Assembly (NCBI RefSeq): GCF_001467585.1
Contig: NZ_LNXY01000020.1
Location: 388,456 to 452,455 of the forward strand
Direction of reading: 5' to 3'
Source of the DNA: Legionella drozanskii LLAP-1
GTDB lineage: Bacteria > Pseudomonadota > Gammaproteobacteria > Legionellales > Legionellaceae
Length of the DNA stretch: 64,000 nt
Of the stretch, positions 52,179 to 59,233 are shown piece by piece. The position numbers and the translations under genes were made by a program. A model generated the notes under the pieces. It saw nothing but the letters and a program-made list of their open reading frames with translations, did no database searches and was not told the DNA's origin. Each line of letters starts with the position of its first letter. Position 1 is the stretch's first letter.

Positions 52179-52677
52179 TAATTAAGCAGTTGAAACATAA
52201 TACAATAGTTTGATTAACAAAATAACCAAATATTGACAAATTGGATTAAAATTTGTAGCGGGGGCAATTAAACCGATTTCTAACACAAAGCAGTTCAAGA
52301 AGGTAAGCTCGCTATTTGTATTATTATGCAAGGTCGACCTATCAATGACTTATCTGTTTATTAAAAAGAGTCAAACAGAAGTACCTTGTAACTAGGGACT
52401 GTTAACATTTGCTCCTCCCCGCCGTCCCGCGGCATGTCCTTCCAATAGACCCTAAGTATTTGTTGAAAAATGGAATTTATATGTTTCTAATCCGTTCGTC
52501 CCGCGGAGGCGCATTAGCGCCGTCTCGAAGCATTATAGTCCAATACTACAAAGGAGTTCAGCGTGTTTTTTATACATTCTTCAATCATTTAACTGTTGAT
52601 GATTACCCAATTCTAACTTATCCCAGCCTAACAATTTCATAAGCTTTAAAAAATTAATCTTCCGAACTATTTCAACT
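52179..52677. other. Intergenic region before blaI, with a GC-rich repeat copy
   Basis: No convincing gene; a 77-residue plus-strand frame at 52409-52642 crosses repeat sequence and lacks a ribosome site. CGTCCCGCGG occurs at 52423-52432 and 52497-52506. The complement of 52494-52531 matches 39986-40023 at 28 of 38 aligned positions without gaps, so this is a second copy of the GC-rich element; it contains a GGCGC/GCGCC hairpin. Confidence 0.55.
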
Positions 52678-52718
52678 CTACTATTTTTATAGTAGCATCT
52701 ACTAAAAATATAGTAGAT
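52678..52718 (+). promoter_or_regulatory. Twin BlaI-type operators overlapping the bla promoter
   Basis: Two dyads, 52678-52695 (CTACTAT-4-ATAGTAG) and 52697-52718 (ATCTACTA-6-TAGTAGAT), each have the core TACTA-N6-TAGTA, the geometry of BlaI/MecI operators. Their centres are 21 bp apart, two helical turns, so two dimers would bind the same face. A weak promoter (TTTATA 52686, TATAGT 52709, 17 bp spacing) overlaps both. Confidence 0.9.
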
Positions 52719-52744
52719 CATGTTTTATTTAGTTTGGAGAAAAA

Positions 52745-53167
52745 ATGTCAACAAAAAAAGGATCTAACGCGTTTACTCACGATCGCCTCCTTACAGAGGT
52801 AGAACTTGAATTAATGAATATTATTTGGAGCCTTAATAAGGTAACTATTAAAGAGATTGTTTCACATCTGCCCAAAGAAAGACCTTTAGCTTATACCACT
52901 GTGGCAACCGTAGTAAAAGTGCTTGAACAAAAGGGTTTTCTTGAATGCCAAAAAAGCTCTTTTGCCCATGTTTTTGTACCTATAGTTACAAAAGCTGAAT
53001 ACGAAGGGACCTGTATCGAGCATATGGTAACTAATGTTTTTGATGGCGAGCCTGTGGCGCTGGTGCAAAGACTTTTGATGGCCAAAAAGTTAGAACAGGA
53101 TGATATTCAAGCCATTGAGGAAGCGCTTAAGCAATTGTTAACTTCTGCAAAAAAAATCGAGGCCTAG
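52745..53167 (+). CDS. blaI: BlaI/MecI-family transcriptional repressor
   Basis: A 140-residue winged-helix repressor: LTEVELELMNIIWSLNKVTIKEIVSHLPKERPLAYTTVATVVKVLEQKGFLE is the DNA-binding half, followed by the dimerisation half with HMVTNVFDGEPVALVQRLLM. It starts 27 bp after the twin operators with GGAG upstream. It should repress its own operon until cleaved after the receptor senses a beta-lactam. It is separated from the receptor gene by two bases. Cleavage-site residues cannot be assigned reliably from the sequence. Confidence 0.95.
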   Translation: MSTKKGSNAFTHDRLLTEVELELMNIIWSLNKVTIKEIVSHLPKERPLAYTTVATVVKVLEQKGFLECQKSSFAHVFVPIVTKAEYEGTCIEHMVTNVFDGEPVALVQRLLMAKKLEQDDIQAIEEALKQLLTSAKKIEA

Positions 53168-53169
53168 CC

Positions 53170-55086
53170 ATGTTATTTCTAGAAATTTTATTGAGTATTC
53201 ATTGCTTACTCTTAGTAAGCTCGTGGGTGATCGGGGGTCGTTGGCTTGCGAATCAACCGTCTTTTAAACTCAAATTAGCTCGTCTTTTATTAGTTAGTTG
53301 TGTGATTTCTCCATTAATCGTCCATTGCATAAACCGATCTCCTGAACTTGAGCAACAGCACTATGTATCCTTTGATGTGCAAGAGTATGTGAATCAACCC
53401 ATCTTAAAGGCTGAATCTTCGCTAAGAGCTCCTGAATCAACCGCTACTTTGTTAATGAATAATATGAGTTATTGCCAGCTCATTTATCTAGTGTTTGCTT
53501 TGCTTATCTTGTTACGCAGTTATCAAGTACTGTCAGCTATGAGGCACTTAAGAACTCTATTAGCTGAAGCAGTTCCTTATCGAACATCCGGTAAACTAGT
53601 TATTAAAGTCTCTCACCGCTGCCATATCCCTTTCTCAGTATTTCTATTTAACAAAGCTTATATCGTATTACCTCTATCCTTATTGTCTTCTGCCAAGAAT
53701 GTGAAGATTGCGATTGCTCATGAAGGCCAACATCATCGTAATGGTGATTGCCTATGGGCCTATTTTATTGAGGTTCTGCGGATCATTTTCTTTGCAAATC
53801 CAGGTGTTTCGCGATGGGCTCGTATCTTAAGCCAATTACAAGAATTTTCATGTGACGAAGTATTGGTTGGCCAGCCAAAAATTTCGACCTATGACTATGG
53901 CCACTGTCTGTTTGATGTTGTACAGACAGCGGCTCAAAATTCCAAGCTATCTCACCGAGAAATTGCATGCACGGTAGGTATGGCGTTGGGCAAAGACAAC
54001 GAAGACCGTACTTTTATTATCAGGAGAATTTCAATGTTATCAGCTTATCCACTTAATACAGCAAAATCCTTATTGTTAGGGGGAGTTTTTGCGGGAGTGG
54101 CTATTTTGGCCCAAATCTCTGTTGCCTATTCAGCAGTAGGAGCCTTGACTAATTCTAAGGGAAAAGAAGTCGATATCTCCCATTTAGATCGAAAAATTCA
54201 AAACATTGCAGAGAAAGAAATTAAAATCGCTGTGCAACGATATCATGCAAAATCGGGGGTTATTGCTATCGCCAATGCCAAAACCGGGGATATAATTGCT
54301 TTTGCTGAATCGGGCAAGAATCAGCGCAGTTGGAAGTCACGTGTTTTTGCCCCTGGTTCTACGATAAAACCTTTTATTGCAGCCGCAGCGATTGATTCCG
54401 GGAGCAGCTCTGAAACAAAAAACTATGATTGCCGTTCCCCCTATTCGATAGAAGGTAGAACCTTTACAGATTACTACGTCAATAAGGGCCCCATTTCATT
54501 GGCAGAGGCTATCGCAAAATCAAGTAATTTATGCCTTATTAAGGTTTCCCAGGAAGCTGGAGCAGCAGTGATTCGTAAAAAACTCTCTGAATTTGGTTTT
54601 GACATGAACAGTTGGTGGCAAGAAGCAAATCAAAGTGACGAATTACAATTGGCAATGGTTTCGGTGGGTGAGAATATACCCGTTACGATTGACTCCTTAA
54701 CAAAATCCTACGCCATTCTTGCTAACAAAGGACGTTCATTCAAAGGAGGAGAGCCCCCTATTATTTCAGCAACAACGCTAAGCTCAATTAATCATATCCT
54801 TGAGAACGTTGTTATTAATGGAAATGGAAAACTAGCTGCGATTCCTGGTGTTAGCGTCGCTGGTAAAACAGGAACAGTTGCAGAAAATACGGATGTTGCT
54901 CAGGGTAAACAACTTTCCTTGTTTGCTGGATATCTACCAGTAAATTCCTCAGGTTACGCCATGGTGGTCGTGATTGAAGACGGTCATTTAAGCAAAAATG
55001 GCGAGACCTTGACCTCCGGTGGAGAGTTAGCGGCCCCTGTATTTCGCAAGGTCGCAATGAATAGTCTAAATAGTACCAATCAATAA
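53170..55086 (+). CDS. blaR1: BlaR1-type antirepressor with a PBP-like sensor domain
   Basis: 638 residues. Membrane segments near 1-25, 37-55, 95-120 and 300-320 enclose an M56 metalloprotease with HEGQH at 184-188 and the downstream EFSCDE glutamate. The extracellular domain from about residue 345 has S397-T-I-K400 (PGSTIKPF), S451-S-N453 and K566-T-G-T569, with AGYLPV and GGELAAPVFRKV, the signature order of FtsI/PBP2 transpeptidases; BlaR1 of Gram-positives uses a class D lactamase fold. Binding of a beta-lactam to S397 should activate cleavage of BlaI. It follows blaI by two bases. Confidence 0.9.
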   Translation: MLFLEILLSIHCLLLVSSWVIGGRWLANQPSFKLKLARLLLVSCVISPLIVHCINRSPELEQQHYVSFDVQEYVNQPILKAESSLRAPESTATLLMNNMSYCQLIYLVFALLILLRSYQVLSAMRHLRTLLAEAVPYRTSGKLVIKVSHRCHIPFSVFLFNKAYIVLPLSLLSSAKNVKIAIAHEGQHHRNGDCLWAYFIEVLRIIFFANPGVSRWARILSQLQEFSCDEVLVGQPKISTYDYGHCLFDVVQTAAQNSKLSHREIACTVGMALGKDNEDRTFIIRRISMLSAYPLNTAKSLLLGGVFAGVAILAQISVAYSAVGALTNSKGKEVDISHLDRKIQNIAEKEIKIAVQRYHAKSGVIAIANAKTGDIIAFAESGKNQRSWKSRVFAPGSTIKPFIAAAAIDSGSSSETKNYDCRSPYSIEGRTFTDYYVNKGPISLAEAIAKSSNLCLIKVSQEAGAAVIRKKLSEFGFDMNSWWQEANQSDELQLAMVSVGENIPVTIDSLTKSYAILANKGRSFKGGEPPIISATTLSSINHILENVVINGNGKLAAIPGVSVAGKTGTVAENTDVAQGKQLSLFAGYLPVNSSGYAMVVVIEDGHLSKNGETLTSGGELAAPVFRKVAMNSLNSTNQ

Positions 55087-55093
55087 ATCACCT

Positions 55094-55124
55094 TAGGGGT
55101 ACAGTCGCTTTTGCTGTACCCCTA
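55094..55124. promoter_or_regulatory. Intercistronic hairpin between blaR1 and the class D gene
   Basis: Perfect 11-bp arms TAGGGGTACAG and CTGTACCCCTA with a 9-base loop, starting 7 bp past the blaR1 stop. Without a T-run it is better read as an mRNA processing or attenuation element than as a full terminator. No second BlaI-type operator lies between the genes. Confidence 0.65.
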
Positions 55125-55151
55125 GCAATGACATCGAAGTTGGAGTTTTTT

Positions 55152-55952
55152 ATGAAGAAAATATCTACAATTCTAGGTATGACGCTATTATATTGTGTGA
55201 GTACTTGGGCTCAAGGCTCTTGCTTTTTGATCTATGAAGAGCAAACCCTGCTTAAGCAGGAAGGCAAGGATTGCAACCAGCGCTTTGCGCCGCAATCGAC
55301 CTTTAAAATTGCCTTGAGTCTTATGGGTTTCGATTCAGGAATATTAAAAGATGCGCTACATCCTGAATGGCCCTACAAAAAAGAATATGAACTTTACCTC
55401 AATACCTGGAAATATCCTCATAACCCGCATAGTTGGATAAGAGATTCCTGTCTGTGGTATTCGCAAGTGTTAACGCAACAATTAGGCATGAAACGTTTTA
55501 AAAACTATGTTGATGCATTTCACTACGGTAATGGGGATGTCTCTGGCGACAAAGGTCAGAATAATGGCTTAACCCATGCCTGGCTTTCAAGCTCGCTTGC
55601 TATCTCACCCCTAGAGCAAATTCTGTTTCTCCAAGAAATAATCAATAAAAAATTACCTCTGAGCCAAAAAGCGTTCACTATGACTAAAGATATTCTTTAT
55701 ATCCAAGAATTAGCGGGCGGTTGGAAACTCTATGGAAAAACAGGTAATGGTCGACAGTTAACGAAGGACCAAAACCAAAAACTATCGCTGCAACACGGAT
55801 GGTTCGTAGGCTGGATTGAGAAGGATAATCGGGTGATTACTTTTGCGAATCATATTGCCGATAGTAAGGAAAAAGCGACCTTCGCGAGTTTCAGAGTGAA
55901 AAACGACACCTTGAATAAATTATTTTATTTGATCAATGAGTTAGAAAAATAA
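55152..55952 (+). CDS. Class D (OXA-type) beta-lactamase
   Basis: A 266-residue exported enzyme from the ATG at 55152 (GGAG 7 bp upstream; an ATG at 55128 lies before that site). Signal peptide MKKISTILGMTLLYCVSTWA. Class D motifs are S49-T-F-K52 (PQSTFKIALSLMG), Y125-G-N127 (FHYGNGDVSG) and K196-T-G198 (LYGKTGNG), plus QHGWFVGWIEK. The lysine of the first motif is the carbamylated general base in this class. Overall pattern and length resemble OXA-29/LoxA of Legionella. Induced, by inference, through the adjacent blaI-blaR1. Confidence 0.95.
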   Translation: MKKISTILGMTLLYCVSTWAQGSCFLIYEEQTLLKQEGKDCNQRFAPQSTFKIALSLMGFDSGILKDALHPEWPYKKEYELYLNTWKYPHNPHSWIRDSCLWYSQVLTQQLGMKRFKNYVDAFHYGNGDVSGDKGQNNGLTHAWLSSSLAISPLEQILFLQEIINKKLPLSQKAFTMTKDILYIQELAGGWKLYGKTGNGRQLTKDQNQKLSLQHGWFVGWIEKDNRVITFANHIADSKEKATFASFRVKNDTLNKLFYLINELEK

Positions 55953-55980: not shown

Positions 55981-56271
55981 GTGCGACACCTTATCCTAGG
56001 GGCAGTCTTATTTTTTTGCAGCTATAGCGCAATTGCTCAATGTGAGTTACGCCTAAATAACCTCACTGATAAACCGGCTTTAGCATGGATTCAATATGAC
56101 CAAAGATTAGATGATCAAGTAAATATTGCACCTCATCGCTCTTTATTCGTTGATTTACACTATGGTGGCTATTGTCATGATAAAGCTTATTTCAAGTTGT
56201 ATCGTTATGCTCATGAATTATATTTTTCCGGGGTATTAGCCTCCGGACAAGTATTTGATATCCATCCTTAA
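55981..56271 (+). CDS. Small exported protein after the class D gene
   Basis: About 96 residues from a GTG at 55981, chosen because TGGAG lies 7 bp upstream and the peptide then opens with a signal sequence (MRHLILGAVLFFCSYSAIAQC). The mature part is about 77 residues, with a Cys near each end of its first half (CELRLNN and GGYCHDKAYFKLYRY), so one disulfide is possible. No family recognised. It lies 28 bp past the lactamase stop and may be the last gene of the bla operon. Confidence 0.65.
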   Translation: MRHLILGAVLFFCSYSAIAQCELRLNNLTDKPALAWIQYDQRLDDQVNIAPHRSLFVDLHYGGYCHDKAYFKLYRYAHELYFSGVLASGQVFDIHP

Positions 56272-56290
56272 CCAGCTAGGAAAAATTCTT

Positions 56291-59233
56291 ATGCTAACTA
56301 TTTCCGTATCCAGCACGCTTCCTAGTAGAAATGCGGGCGAGATAGACATTGAACTTAGTGATAACCATGATTCCACAATTCATATTAAAGGCTCTCATGA
56401 TGCCACTATCCCTGTTGACGAAAAGCTATGCTTATTAGCAGTAGGTGGCAATGGTATTGATGGCAAAATAGGTGCAGATGGCTATGATGGCACTTCCGGC
56501 GTTGATGGATGCGATGCGGGTATGTACCGTTCTGGAGGTAATGGTGGCTCGGGCGGAGATGGGGGGCAGGGGGAAGCTGGCTCTAATGGTGATCCAGCAG
56601 GCAACGGCGGCAAAGTTGACGTTTGGGTGAAATATGAGGATTTAGCGCTTTTAGATACAATTTCTTCAATAAATGTATCGGCTGGTATACCAGGAAAAGC
56701 AGGAAGGCATGGTGCCGGCGGGCCTGGTGGTCGAGGGGGGCGCGGAGGAGCATCTTATTCATGGAGTGAACCCTATACGGCGTATCGTACTGAACATTGG
56801 ACCGATGCTGACGGTAATAGCCATAGCCATGTAGTCAGCGATACCCATTATAATTATCATTATTCTTCAGGAGGTATAGATGGTCCTGATGGTTCGGATG
56901 GGGGGACTCATATCTACCCTTTATATCCTGGAGCAGTAGGTAAAGTAGGCCAAATTCATTTTCATGTTATACAAGATACTTCGGCGGCGCTTCACAAAGA
57001 ACCCTATCAATTAGTGACTCGAAATGTTTGTTTTCAGTCTATGGAAGAGGGTGGATTATGGGAGCCAGGAGATGTCGTTAAAGCCTATTATGGAATTGAA
57101 AACACCGGAACCACTATGATATCTCCACCAGAATTAATTCCATTAGTTTTAGAAAATAAGGAACATTTGGAATTAGTGCAAAGTGGTGAAGTTAGCGGCT
57201 GCATTCAGGCTGGGACAAGTCATTTTAGTGATTCAACTCCTTTGCTATTTCGCATCAAAGAACCACAAAGTCACACTGGAAGTGAGCCATATAAACTTGT
57301 TACTGCGGTTATGGTCACAGCACAAAATACTCGCCTTAATCAACCCTATCAACACAGTGGCACTAGAAATAACTTAACTATACAATATCCCGTATTGCTA
57401 GAATCTCAACCTACTCAATTCTCTATTGCAGAGAATGAATCACAGTTGTTACAGGCGACGATAAAGAATATCGGGACTAAAGATCTAGGAGAACTTGCTG
57501 GACGGGAGTTATTTGTAGAAATCACAGCAGCTGATACTTCTTCTTCCTTAGTTTCAGAACATATTTCATTATTAGAGCCTCAAAATAAACACCAACTCAC
57601 CTATAGTGAACAATTTAAACCAGGGGCTGAGTTCGGTGAGCAACAAACTTACTATATGAGTCTATTTTTACAGCCAATTAATAGAAGCGATACCAAGGTT
57701 CTTATTCAAAGACAAACTATAATAGGTCAGCTCACTCCTAAATATTCTCCTACTAAAAACAAATTTACACTGGTTATTAATGGCAATACGACAAAAGAAC
57801 AAATTAAATATTGGACTAACTTTTTAAGTCAATTGTCAGGGAATAGCGAAGTAGCAATTTGGAATACCTCTTACTATCAAGAACTGGATTTGGATGGAAG
57901 CCCTTGCTTATTGGAAGATAGTACTCATGGAACCGTAATTATTTTGGATGACTTATTCCCCAAAAATACATCAAATAAGCTACAACATAATACTCAGTAC
58001 ATCACTCAAGAACAGTTATTAAAAGCTTCACAGCAATACGATGTCTCGTTAGTGGCTTTAGGCACAAAAGTACTAACTAAACCTTATACGCATAGCGATG
58101 TTCTATCCTGGTCAGACCCCTTGAAAGAACATGACTCACTGAAACTATTAATGGCAGAATTGTTACATGAAGTGGATCAACCCATGTTATTACATCAGGT
58201 TACAATACCCTTAGAACAAGGGTTTTGTAGGGGAAGAGAAAAAGCGGATGAGGCTCTTAGATTAGTAATAGATAACCTGAATAAAGTGTTTCCTAATCGA
58301 ACTTATCATGTAAGTATCGCAGGCGCTGATGAGCAGCAGCTCACTATAAATGTCCGTCGCTTAGCCGATACATTAGAGCAAAATATACTTCAAATACCTT
58401 TATCTGACGAAGAATTAGCTCATCCGGAAAATAACCATGAAATCATTCAATCAGGGATAATAGCTGCCTTACCTTTTTCACAAAAATTAGGTCTATTTAT
58501 TCAAAAAAGTAATCCCTATCATAAGCATTTGGCGCAAGCAATTACTAAGGATTTATTAGACGAACAAAACATAGTCATGCAGACAGAAGCCTATGGCTCT
58601 TGGCTAGAGCGGATAGTACGAAAAAATCAGCGTGATTTTGCTGTAGAATTAAAAAGATTGCGTCAATTGGACAATTTATTAGAGCAATTCGTTCTGAAAG
58701 GAGATTTTGAGAATGTTCGCATATGGTCTCCCTTGATTATTCGCATGATTGCTCAAGTACAATATCATGCAAAACAACATTCTTCCTTTTGGACTCGCTT
58801 CATTCATTGGTTTCTACCTCAGACAAACGAGCAAATTATAGAGAGCTATGATGCGTTAGGTAATAAAATTTTAGATTTACAAAGCAGTTATTCAGGCACT
58901 CCTATTCTAGAAATCAAAGCATTTGCTCAAAGTGAGGAAGAAATTCTTACACTTGCTTTTCAGCTGAAAATATTTTTGAAAGAATACGATACAATCAATT
59001 CGAGCCGCTGTTTTTGTTTCTTTAACAAATCAGAAATAAGTGATATGGAGCGAAAAGCAGTGCAGCAGTTATTGTGTGTATGTACCGAAGATGTTGCCTT
59101 AGATACTTTGGATATTTACAGACAGACGTTGAGTGAAAGCACTAAGCTTAAAAAGTTTGTTACAAAATTTGAACGATTATTCCCTGAATTTGTATCCGAT
59201 AAAATAACAGATAATTTAGCTCTACCCAATTAG
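56291..59233 (+). CDS. Large protein with collagen-like Gly-rich region and beta domains
   Basis: 980 residues from the ATG at 56291 (AGGA about 10 bp upstream); no signal peptide. Residues about 45-165 are Gly-rich, with GxxG runs such as GGNGIDGKIGADGYDG and GAGGPGGRGGRGG broken by polar turns. A His/Tyr/Asp stretch (WTDADGNSHSHVVSDTHYNYHYSS) follows. Residues about 250-500 look like two CARDB/Ig-type beta domains (IENTGTTMISPPE; IKNIGTKDLGELAG). Residues about 510-720 contain a mixed fold, and the last 240 are helical. No family recognised; secretion by the type IVB system is possible but unproven. Confidence 0.65.
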   Translation: MLTISVSSTLPSRNAGEIDIELSDNHDSTIHIKGSHDATIPVDEKLCLLAVGGNGIDGKIGADGYDGTSGVDGCDAGMYRSGGNGGSGGDGGQGEAGSNGDPAGNGGKVDVWVKYEDLALLDTISSINVSAGIPGKAGRHGAGGPGGRGGRGGASYSWSEPYTAYRTEHWTDADGNSHSHVVSDTHYNYHYSSGGIDGPDGSDGGTHIYPLYPGAVGKVGQIHFHVIQDTSAALHKEPYQLVTRNVCFQSMEEGGLWEPGDVVKAYYGIENTGTTMISPPELIPLVLENKEHLELVQSGEVSGCIQAGTSHFSDSTPLLFRIKEPQSHTGSEPYKLVTAVMVTAQNTRLNQPYQHSGTRNNLTIQYPVLLESQPTQFSIAENESQLLQATIKNIGTKDLGELAGRELFVEITAADTSSSLVSEHISLLEPQNKHQLTYSEQFKPGAEFGEQQTYYMSLFLQPINRSDTKVLIQRQTIIGQLTPKYSPTKNKFTLVINGNTTKEQIKYWTNFLSQLSGNSEVAIWNTSYYQELDLDGSPCLLEDSTHGTVIILDDLFPKNTSNKLQHNTQYITQEQLLKASQQYDVSLVALGTKVLTKPYTHSDVLSWSDPLKEHDSLKLLMAELLHEVDQPMLLHQVTIPLEQGFCRGREKADEALRLVIDNLNKVFPNRTYHVSIAGADEQQLTINVRRLADTLEQNILQIPLSDEELAHPENNHEIIQSGIIAALPFSQKLGLFIQKSNPYHKHLAQAITKDLLDEQNIVMQTEAYGSWLERIVRKNQRDFAVELKRLRQLDNLLEQFVLKGDFENVRIWSPLIIRMIAQVQYHAKQHSSFWTRFIHWFLPQTNEQIIESYDALGNKILDLQSSYSGTPILEIKAFAQSEEEILTLAFQLKIFLKEYDTINSSRCFCFFNKSEISDMERKAVQQLLCVCTEDVALDTLDIYRQTLSESTKLKKFVTKFERLFPEFVSDKITDNLALPN

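Follow-up and report, generated by a model that had tools for sequence, protein, structure and literature searches.

A BlaR-type operon of Legionella with a penicillin-binding-protein transpeptidase domain in the place of the class D sensor

The 64,000-nucleotide stretch analysed here (the window), from contig NZ_LNXY01000020.1 of Legionella drozanskii LLAP-1, carries three consecutive genes encoding a BlaI/MecI/CopY-family repressor, a receptor in which a BlaR1-type M56 metalloprotease is fused to the transpeptidase domain of a class B penicillin-binding protein (PBP), and a class D beta-lactamase. All three lie on the + strand, with gaps of 2 nt between the repressor and fusion genes and 41 nt between the fusion and class D genes (Table 1). 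A first-pass annotation, made from the DNA letters, had proposed blaI, a BlaR1-type receptor and a class D lactamase in this order behind twin BlaI operators, and the open reading frames, the Pfam and NCBIfam matches and the dyads agree with that description. The observation of a BlaR-type operon with a PBP-type sensor is thereby confirmed. It is suggested that the operon is an inducible beta-lactam switch, a reading to which we give a probability of about three in four.

The receptor and its transpeptidase domain

The fusion protein (P0002) consists of an M56 protease in residues 1-325 and a transpeptidase domain in residues 335-638. The first-pass annotation had held the latter to be of the FtsI/PBP type and not class D-like, and profiles, PDB searches and fold searches all bear this out; the motifs it quoted are in place, with PGSTIKPF at residue 395, SSN at 451 and KTGT at 566. 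The structure search that it had proposed gave the same answer, as the structure matches listed, together with the profiles, put residues 340-638 with PBPs. A class D profile scores 115 bits against the sensor of Staphylococcus aureus BlaR1 and 2.6 bits against that of the window, and NCBIfam blaR1_generic (NF000326) matches the M56 part only, at 33.5 bits against a cut-off of 400. Both the PDB sequence search and the fold search of the sensor are led by FtsI/PBP2, FtsI being the nearest fold. BlaR1 and other class D sensors are absent among the 50 best rows of Foldseek and of VIA-align, and because PBP rows fill both lists the comparison with class D rests on the profiles. The Pfam family PF00905 does not separate PBP-type from class D-type sensors, as it also matches the class D lactamase of the operon (P0003).

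With FtsI/PBP3 and PBP2 the domain has in common the transpeptidase fold and the three motifs of class B PBPs. Unlike them it is fused to an M56 protease, and the PBP dimer (pedestal) domain PF03717 was not found in P0002 in a Pfam scan with E values up to 0.1. The genome has a separate FtsI-type gene (C27:180902-181792) and further PBPs, which from their sequences are of the MrdA, PBP1A and PBP1C types. That the sensor is the genome's own cell-division FtsI is ruled out by this separate full-length FtsI, by the lack of PF03717 and by a tree in which the sensors and free-standing FtsI-type proteins fall on opposite sides of a branch (100/97, see below).

The nearest solved structure is 4ZTK, titled 'Transpeptidase domain of FtsI4 D,D-transpeptidase from Legionella pneumophila' (PDB, 2015), which is 64-72% identical to the window's sensor in structural alignments and has its residues numbered 334-632. 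An L. pneumophila cluster representative of 636 residues, which includes the M56 part, aligns with the 4ZTK chain over its residues 323-636. It appears from these alignments that 4ZTK is the sensor domain of an orthologous receptor, labelled as a cell-division enzyme. Relatives are similarly named at NCBI, as 'cell division protein FtsI', 'penicillin-binding transpeptidase domain-containing protein' or 'M56 family metallopeptidase'; the name of one relative, AOCefta1, presumably comes from an apple-orchard metagenome paper. The first-pass annotation had allowed that Legionella homologues might all be of the PBP type and already described. The first part stands, in that the relatives found carry the domain and 4ZTK has been deposited. 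For the second there is so far no support: the deposit is under the name FtsI4, and the open-access papers listed included none that describes the receptor.

In the protease half, a profile of residues 1-325 has BlaR1 as its sole PDB match (E 7e-4). Conservation counts out of 121 refer to P0002 and 120 Legionella-type proteins of at least 560 residues from P0005-P0132, among which P0005 is a near-copy of the window's protein (634/638 positions). Residues D193, Y243 and R286 align with D210, Y261 and R294 of S. aureus BlaR1 and are invariant in all 57 rows of an alignment of P0002 with 56 of the 120 listed relatives, chosen for spread. Hydropathy peaks at residues 3-21, 36-54, 104-122 and 301-319 predict four membrane segments, with the sensor after the fourth. 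The predicted loop from the second to the third segment spans residues 54-100; in BlaR1 (structures 8EXP-8EXT) a loop, EL1, reaches into the active site of the sensor (PMC9834060). A candidate self-cleavage site near residues 271-273 was set aside, the alignment being too loose for a claim. Two other, weaker M56 matches in the genome are proteins of 345 and 285 residues with no sensor part.

Much of this is common to the BlaR1/MecR1-BlaI/MecI systems of S. aureus and Bacillus licheniformis, which, in the portion of PMC9834060 available, have a BlaI-family repressor, the M56 HExxH/ExxxD motifs with the Asp, Tyr and Arg residues, four hydrophobic segments, a C-terminal penicillin-binding domain after the fourth segment and palindromic operators upstream. 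The sensor of BlaR1/MecR1 is described as class D-like in a passage of a review (PMC7593790), whereas that of the Legionella receptor is a class B PBP transpeptidase. The hosts here are Gram-negative, unlike S. aureus and B. licheniformis, and the lactamase gene lies downstream on the same strand, in contrast to the divergent unit of those two species (PMC3305447, in the part accessible). Because the class D sensor is lacking and the other testable features are present, we file these receptors as BlaR-type with a PBP sensor and not as strict BlaR1; they would form a variant of BlaR1-type systems.

Operators, distribution and neighbouring genes

The twin dyads hold the only exact TACTA-N6-TAGTA sites of the window, and the tandem operator (TACTA-N6-TAGTA, N3-12, TACTA-N6-TAGTA) occurs once in the 3.56-Mb genome. 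Operators and fusions were scanned for in the same 143 Legionellales genomes; figures from this and the other genome scans (398 Pseudomonadota, 290 Bdellovibrionota) hold among the matches listed. The fusion is present in 35 of the 143 genomes, in 39 copies, and the tandem operator in exactly these 35, at 39 sites; it was found in none of the other 108, and a reversed-pattern control gave no site in the 143. A chance palindrome as the origin of the dyads is ruled out by these scans and the control. The distance was measured in six cases, in which the tandem operator lies 481-620 bp upstream of the point where the fusion match begins. Two perfect core dyads were also found in all 33 fusion-operon upstream regions examined, which were chosen from 100 loci and include several nearly identical copies (e.g. 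L004-L007, L021, L089).

Among the 39 copies one is partial (positions 4-549 of 641) and nine are flagged with one stop in the matched stretch. In the 30 copies examined as loci, six of them flagged, the frame reaches the conserved C-terminal end in every case, and for this reason the flagged stop of those six is taken as the natural stop. Both Pfam domains are found in 117 of the 120 related proteins listed (out of 182), the other three being short pieces with one domain, a make-up that follows partly by construction as the fusion protein was the query. With 8 and 45 more from further listings, at least 170 protein clusters carry the two domains. Class D matches of at least 98 bits in Legionellales lie in frames of 184-322 residues, which are too short to hold the M56 part as well. 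In 22 Legionella-type loci blaI is present in 22 and the class D gene in 20. Fusion operons with no downstream class D gene are those at L020, L022 and L055 (also L032, L052 and L054); the twin operators are nevertheless present at L020, L022, L054 and L055.

The named close relatives of the fusion are from Legionella, the closest among those listed being that of L. nautarum (84%). In a sample of 398 Pseudomonadota genomes the only full-length match among the rows listed is in the window's own genome, a result that is soft for the other 397 because three candidates were scored per genome. Among 72,556 plasmid records, coverage of 80% of the query is reached by five, which are plasmids of L. 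hackeliae, L. sainthelensi, L. longbeachae (two) and L. anisa. Two of these plasmids were opened; both are typed as conjugative and carry blaI, the fusion and the class D gene in the same order, one with blaOXA-29. On the 130-150 kb conjugative Legionella plasmids of L088 and L089 (NZ_LN681226.1, NZ_CP025492.2) the operon adjoins three hydrolase genes, one with a large serine hydrolase domain and two of the alpha/beta type. The fusion was not found in phage records, where none of 14 matching records covers 80% of the query. Two candidates for distant fusions were rejected: plasmid hit H6 (Neorhizobium) is a plain FtsI-type protein, and at the Rhodobacteraceae loci L024 and L025 the transpeptidase part alone matched.

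The class D beta-lactamase has the STFK, YGN and KTG motifs, is 82% identical to a plasmid OXA-29 and has 6whl and 9ltk as solved relatives. A second in-frame ATG at 55152, with GGAG upstream, is the likelier start of the gene. The RNA hairpin that precedes it has a counterpart of the form GGRTRC...GTAYCC at the same place in 11 of 18 relatives (e.g. L001, L002, L008, L014, L016 and L088), among which paired changes were judged by eye. It is possible that the hairpin is an element of differential expression or mRNA processing. Just downstream of the operon is a 992-residue open reading frame (56255-59233), the N-terminal part of which is glycine-rich and repeat-like.

Table 1. Positions of the operon's features in the window
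Feature	Position	Strand	Basis or remark
Operator 1	52677..52695	.	dyad TCTACTATTTTTATAGTAG, core TACTA-N6-TAGTA
Operator 2	52698..52717	.	dyad TCTACTAAAAATATAGTAGA; begins 21 bp past the start of operator 1
Promoter-like hexamers TTTATA-17-TATAGT, overlapping both operators	52686..52714	+	9/12; weak
BlaI/MecI/CopY-family repressor gene, 140 aa	52745..53167	+	Pfam PF03965 (Penicillinase_R) 1.8e-28
M56 protease-PBP transpeptidase fusion receptor gene, 638 aa	53170..55086	+	Pfam domains, relatives, alignment, model
M56 metalloprotease domain match, residues 55-256	53332..53937	+	Pfam PF05569 (Peptidase_M56) 4.1e-15
HEGQH zinc-binding motif (HExxH), residues 184-188	53719..53733	+	H, E, H kept in 121/121
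EFSCD (ExxxD) motif, residues 225-229	53842..53856	+	121/121; aligned with E242xxxD of S. aureus BlaR1
Fourth hydrophobic segment, residues 301-319, linking protease to sensor	54070..54126	+	hydropathy; helix 301-322 in predicted model
Class B PBP-type transpeptidase (sensor) domain, residues 363-628	54256..55053	+	Pfam PF00905 (Transpeptidase) 2.8e-35
SxxK motif S397-K400 (STIK), predicted acylation site	54358..54369	+	121/121
SxN motif S451-N453	54520..54528	+	121/121
KTGT motif, residues 566-569	54865..54876	+	K 121, T 120, G 120, T 120 of 121
RNA hairpin, 13 bp, between receptor and lactamase genes	55093..55125	+	-20.5 kcal/mol; no U tract
Class D beta-lactamase gene (P0003), OXA-29 relative	55128..55952	+	NCBIfam NF000270 (bla_class_D_alt) 353 bits, cut-off 280

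A second lineage and a different sensor domain

A Bacteriovoracaceae protein (locus L023, P0133), 29% identical to the window's receptor, pointed to a second lineage, in a family that we take to belong to the Bdellovibrionota. Full-length M56-PBP fusions are present in 8 of 290 Bdellovibrionota genomes, and a ninth has two fusion halves at the ends of two contigs. Named records of this type are from Bacteriovorax, Pseudobdellovibrionaceae, Bdellovibrionaceae and Bdellovibrionota metagenome-assembled genomes. The HExxH and ExxxD motifs are kept in all eight fusions and blaI is directly upstream in all eight regions. Two perfect dyads precede five of them, one perfect and one imperfect dyad a sixth, a single dyad a seventh, and two TACGA-N6-TCGTA variants the last. 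In the genome of the window, as in seven of the eight Bdellovibrionota genomes, the extended core CTACTA-N6-TAGTAG is confined to the operon of the system, and the eighth has no site; reversed-pattern controls of this core give 0-2 sites per genome, and single sites alone prove little. At L121 (G798) Pro replaces the SxxK serine, which the close relative L123 keeps.

In a tree of transpeptidase domains 25 sensors of both lineages lie on one side of a branch and 27 free-standing FtsI-type PBPs on the other (100/97); the latter are 18 domains of one set and nine of another, distant MrdA and PBP1-type rows having been left out. As far as the sequences tell, this speaks for a single capture of the PBP domain for both lineages. 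In a tree of the M56 part the Legionella-type rows form one group (100/98), which is joined by the sensor-less L077 (88/92). L077 (also L158, genome G241) is a Pseudomonadota locus in which a BlaI-type gene is followed by a 366-residue M56 protein that has no sensor domain. P0096, from an Oligoflexales metagenome-assembled genome, falls inside the Legionella-type clade, by transfer or as a mis-binned contig.

Other M56 proteins of the Bdellovibrionota, of some 530-540 residues, carry a C-terminal lytic transglycosylase domain (M56-SLT; PF01464, 3e-12 to 2e-23) in all five scanned (L130, L131, L137, L138 and L139; further examples are L136 and L140). A BlaI gene is directly upstream in all six regions fetched (L152-L156, L159). 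Tandem AACTA-N6-TAGTT dyads are found there, both perfect in five regions, and one perfect with one that has a changed base in the sixth. The existence of the M56-SLT proteins makes it more likely that the C-terminal PBP domain is a sensor. Operators of the TACTA-N6-TAGTA form appear to be paired with PBP sensors and those of the AACTA-N6-TAGTT form with transglycosylase sensors. BlaI and the M56 protease may constitute a general plug-in receptor in which various cell-wall enzymes have come to serve as the sensor and each sensor has an operator code of its own. Legionella would use a PBP transpeptidase, Bdellovibrionota both this and a lytic transglycosylase, and Firmicutes a class D lactamase-like domain. 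Bacteria would then read antibiotic or wall damage with the class of enzyme that is attacked, a view that we consider evenly balanced between right and wrong. Precomputed Pfam assignments give further M56 partners in P0183, P0240 and P0253, namely PF03544 (named TonB family protein), PF09992 and repeat domains such as PF12796.

Induction by beta-lactams and its alternatives

If the receptor works as the BlaR1 literature describes, acylation of S397 in the periplasmic PBP domain by a beta-lactam would be relayed along the fourth membrane helix to the protease in the cytoplasm. Once active, the protease would cleave the BlaI-type repressor and so remove it from the twin operators, and both receptor and lactamase would be expressed. 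Because slow deacylation is general among PBPs, a sensor of this type would need no separate device for a long-lived acyl-enzyme, and beta-lactams would be read by the very fold that they target.

Several results weigh against this reading. The class D gene is not adjacent at two of the 22 Legionella-type loci (L020, L022), four of the 30 loci L029-L058 have no class D match within 1.5-kb flanks, and none of the eight Bdellovibrionota fusion regions has one. In the second lineage the SxxK serine is missing in one protein of eight, SSD replaces SSN in one, and KTA or KTS replaces KTG in seven, a drift of sequence that seems odd for a conserved beta-lactam reader. The sigma-70 scan gave 10 sites against 11.3 expected from shuffles, so that the promoter call is at chance level. 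No protein exceeded the curated BlaR1 cut-off in the 143 Legionellales genomes, and likewise none in 14 control genomes, which leaves this search with no positive control. The model of the M56 part alone has a predicted local distance difference test score of 44, too poor for a fold search, and the protease fold of the receptor is assigned from its sequence. A first transpeptidase tree that included more distant PBPs with long branches placed the sensors together in 18% of bootstraps and left the long-branched P0133 unsettled. Finally, one clade of all PBP-type proteins is rejected in the M56 tree (approximately unbiased test, p 0.0007), one of the two rows that break it being a gene cut by a contig end.

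The chief alternative, unlikely in our judgement, is that the transpeptidase domain senses a natural signal, either a stem peptide of peptidoglycan or the condition of the cell wall, which beta-lactams only mimic. It would account for the drift of KTG and for the fusions that have no adjacent lactamase, and the same BlaI-M56 chassis bears a lytic transglycosylase domain, a class that to our knowledge is not acylated by beta-lactams. A peptidoglycan dipeptide is also given as a coactivator of BlaI in Bacillus, in the part of PMC3305447 available. Against this alternative, the class D gene follows the fusion in most Legionella-type loci, and 120 or 121 of the 121 Legionella-type proteins have unaltered PBP motifs.

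A further alternative, which we regard as improbable, is implied by the name FtsI4: the fusion might itself be a D,D-transpeptidase under inducible control, serving as a reserve PBP when FtsI is inhibited, with an autoregulatory protease. The intact SxxK, SxN and KTGT motifs, FtsI as the closest fold, the PDB and NCBI names, and the Bdellovibrionota pairs of BlaI and fusion that stand with no lactamase would all suit it. The absence of PF03717 from the window's protein, the separate full-length FtsI and further PBPs of the genome and the split of sensors from free-standing PBPs speak against it, and a lytic transglycosylase on the same chassis argues for a receptor. That the protein is an ordinary BlaR1 with a class D-type sensor misread from sparse motifs, SxxK and KTG being common to both folds and both folds matching PF00905, is refuted by the profile test, in which the two-way profiles differ by more than 100 bits, and is opposed by the partial blaR1_generic match and the lead of FtsI/PBP2 in the PDB and fold searches.

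Related sensors have been described. In Bacillus thuringiensis the induction of a beta-lactamase depends on a PBP, PbpP, as the sensor of beta-lactams; according to the sections available of PMC8092216 it acts on sigma-P via RsiP cleavage and is likely not the protease of that pathway, whereas in Legionella protease and PBP domain form one protein. An OXA-domain survey (PMC9045261), in the part accessible, has BlaR homologues in Firmicutes and Oxalobacteraceae, those of the latter with class D active sites and likewise M56-linked receptors of Gram-negative bacteria; because that survey collected OXA-domain proteins, a PBP-sensor receptor would be outside its set. No description of a PBP-sensor BlaR or of an M56-SLT receptor was found among the open-access papers listed, which is weak evidence as several lists were capped and subscription papers were outside the scope.

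Discussion of how BlaR1 signals has centred on a class D-like sensor. A naturally occurring receptor in which the same protease bears a PBP sensor would help to separate the generic parts of the signal path from the others. The assignment relabels a deposited crystal structure, and many entries named 'cell division protein FtsI', as putative receptor domains. If the reading is correct, BlaI/BlaR-type induction as a receptor class extends to Legionella and Bdellovibrionota, and the spectrum of induction in these bacteria would follow the affinity of a PBP and not that of a lactamase.

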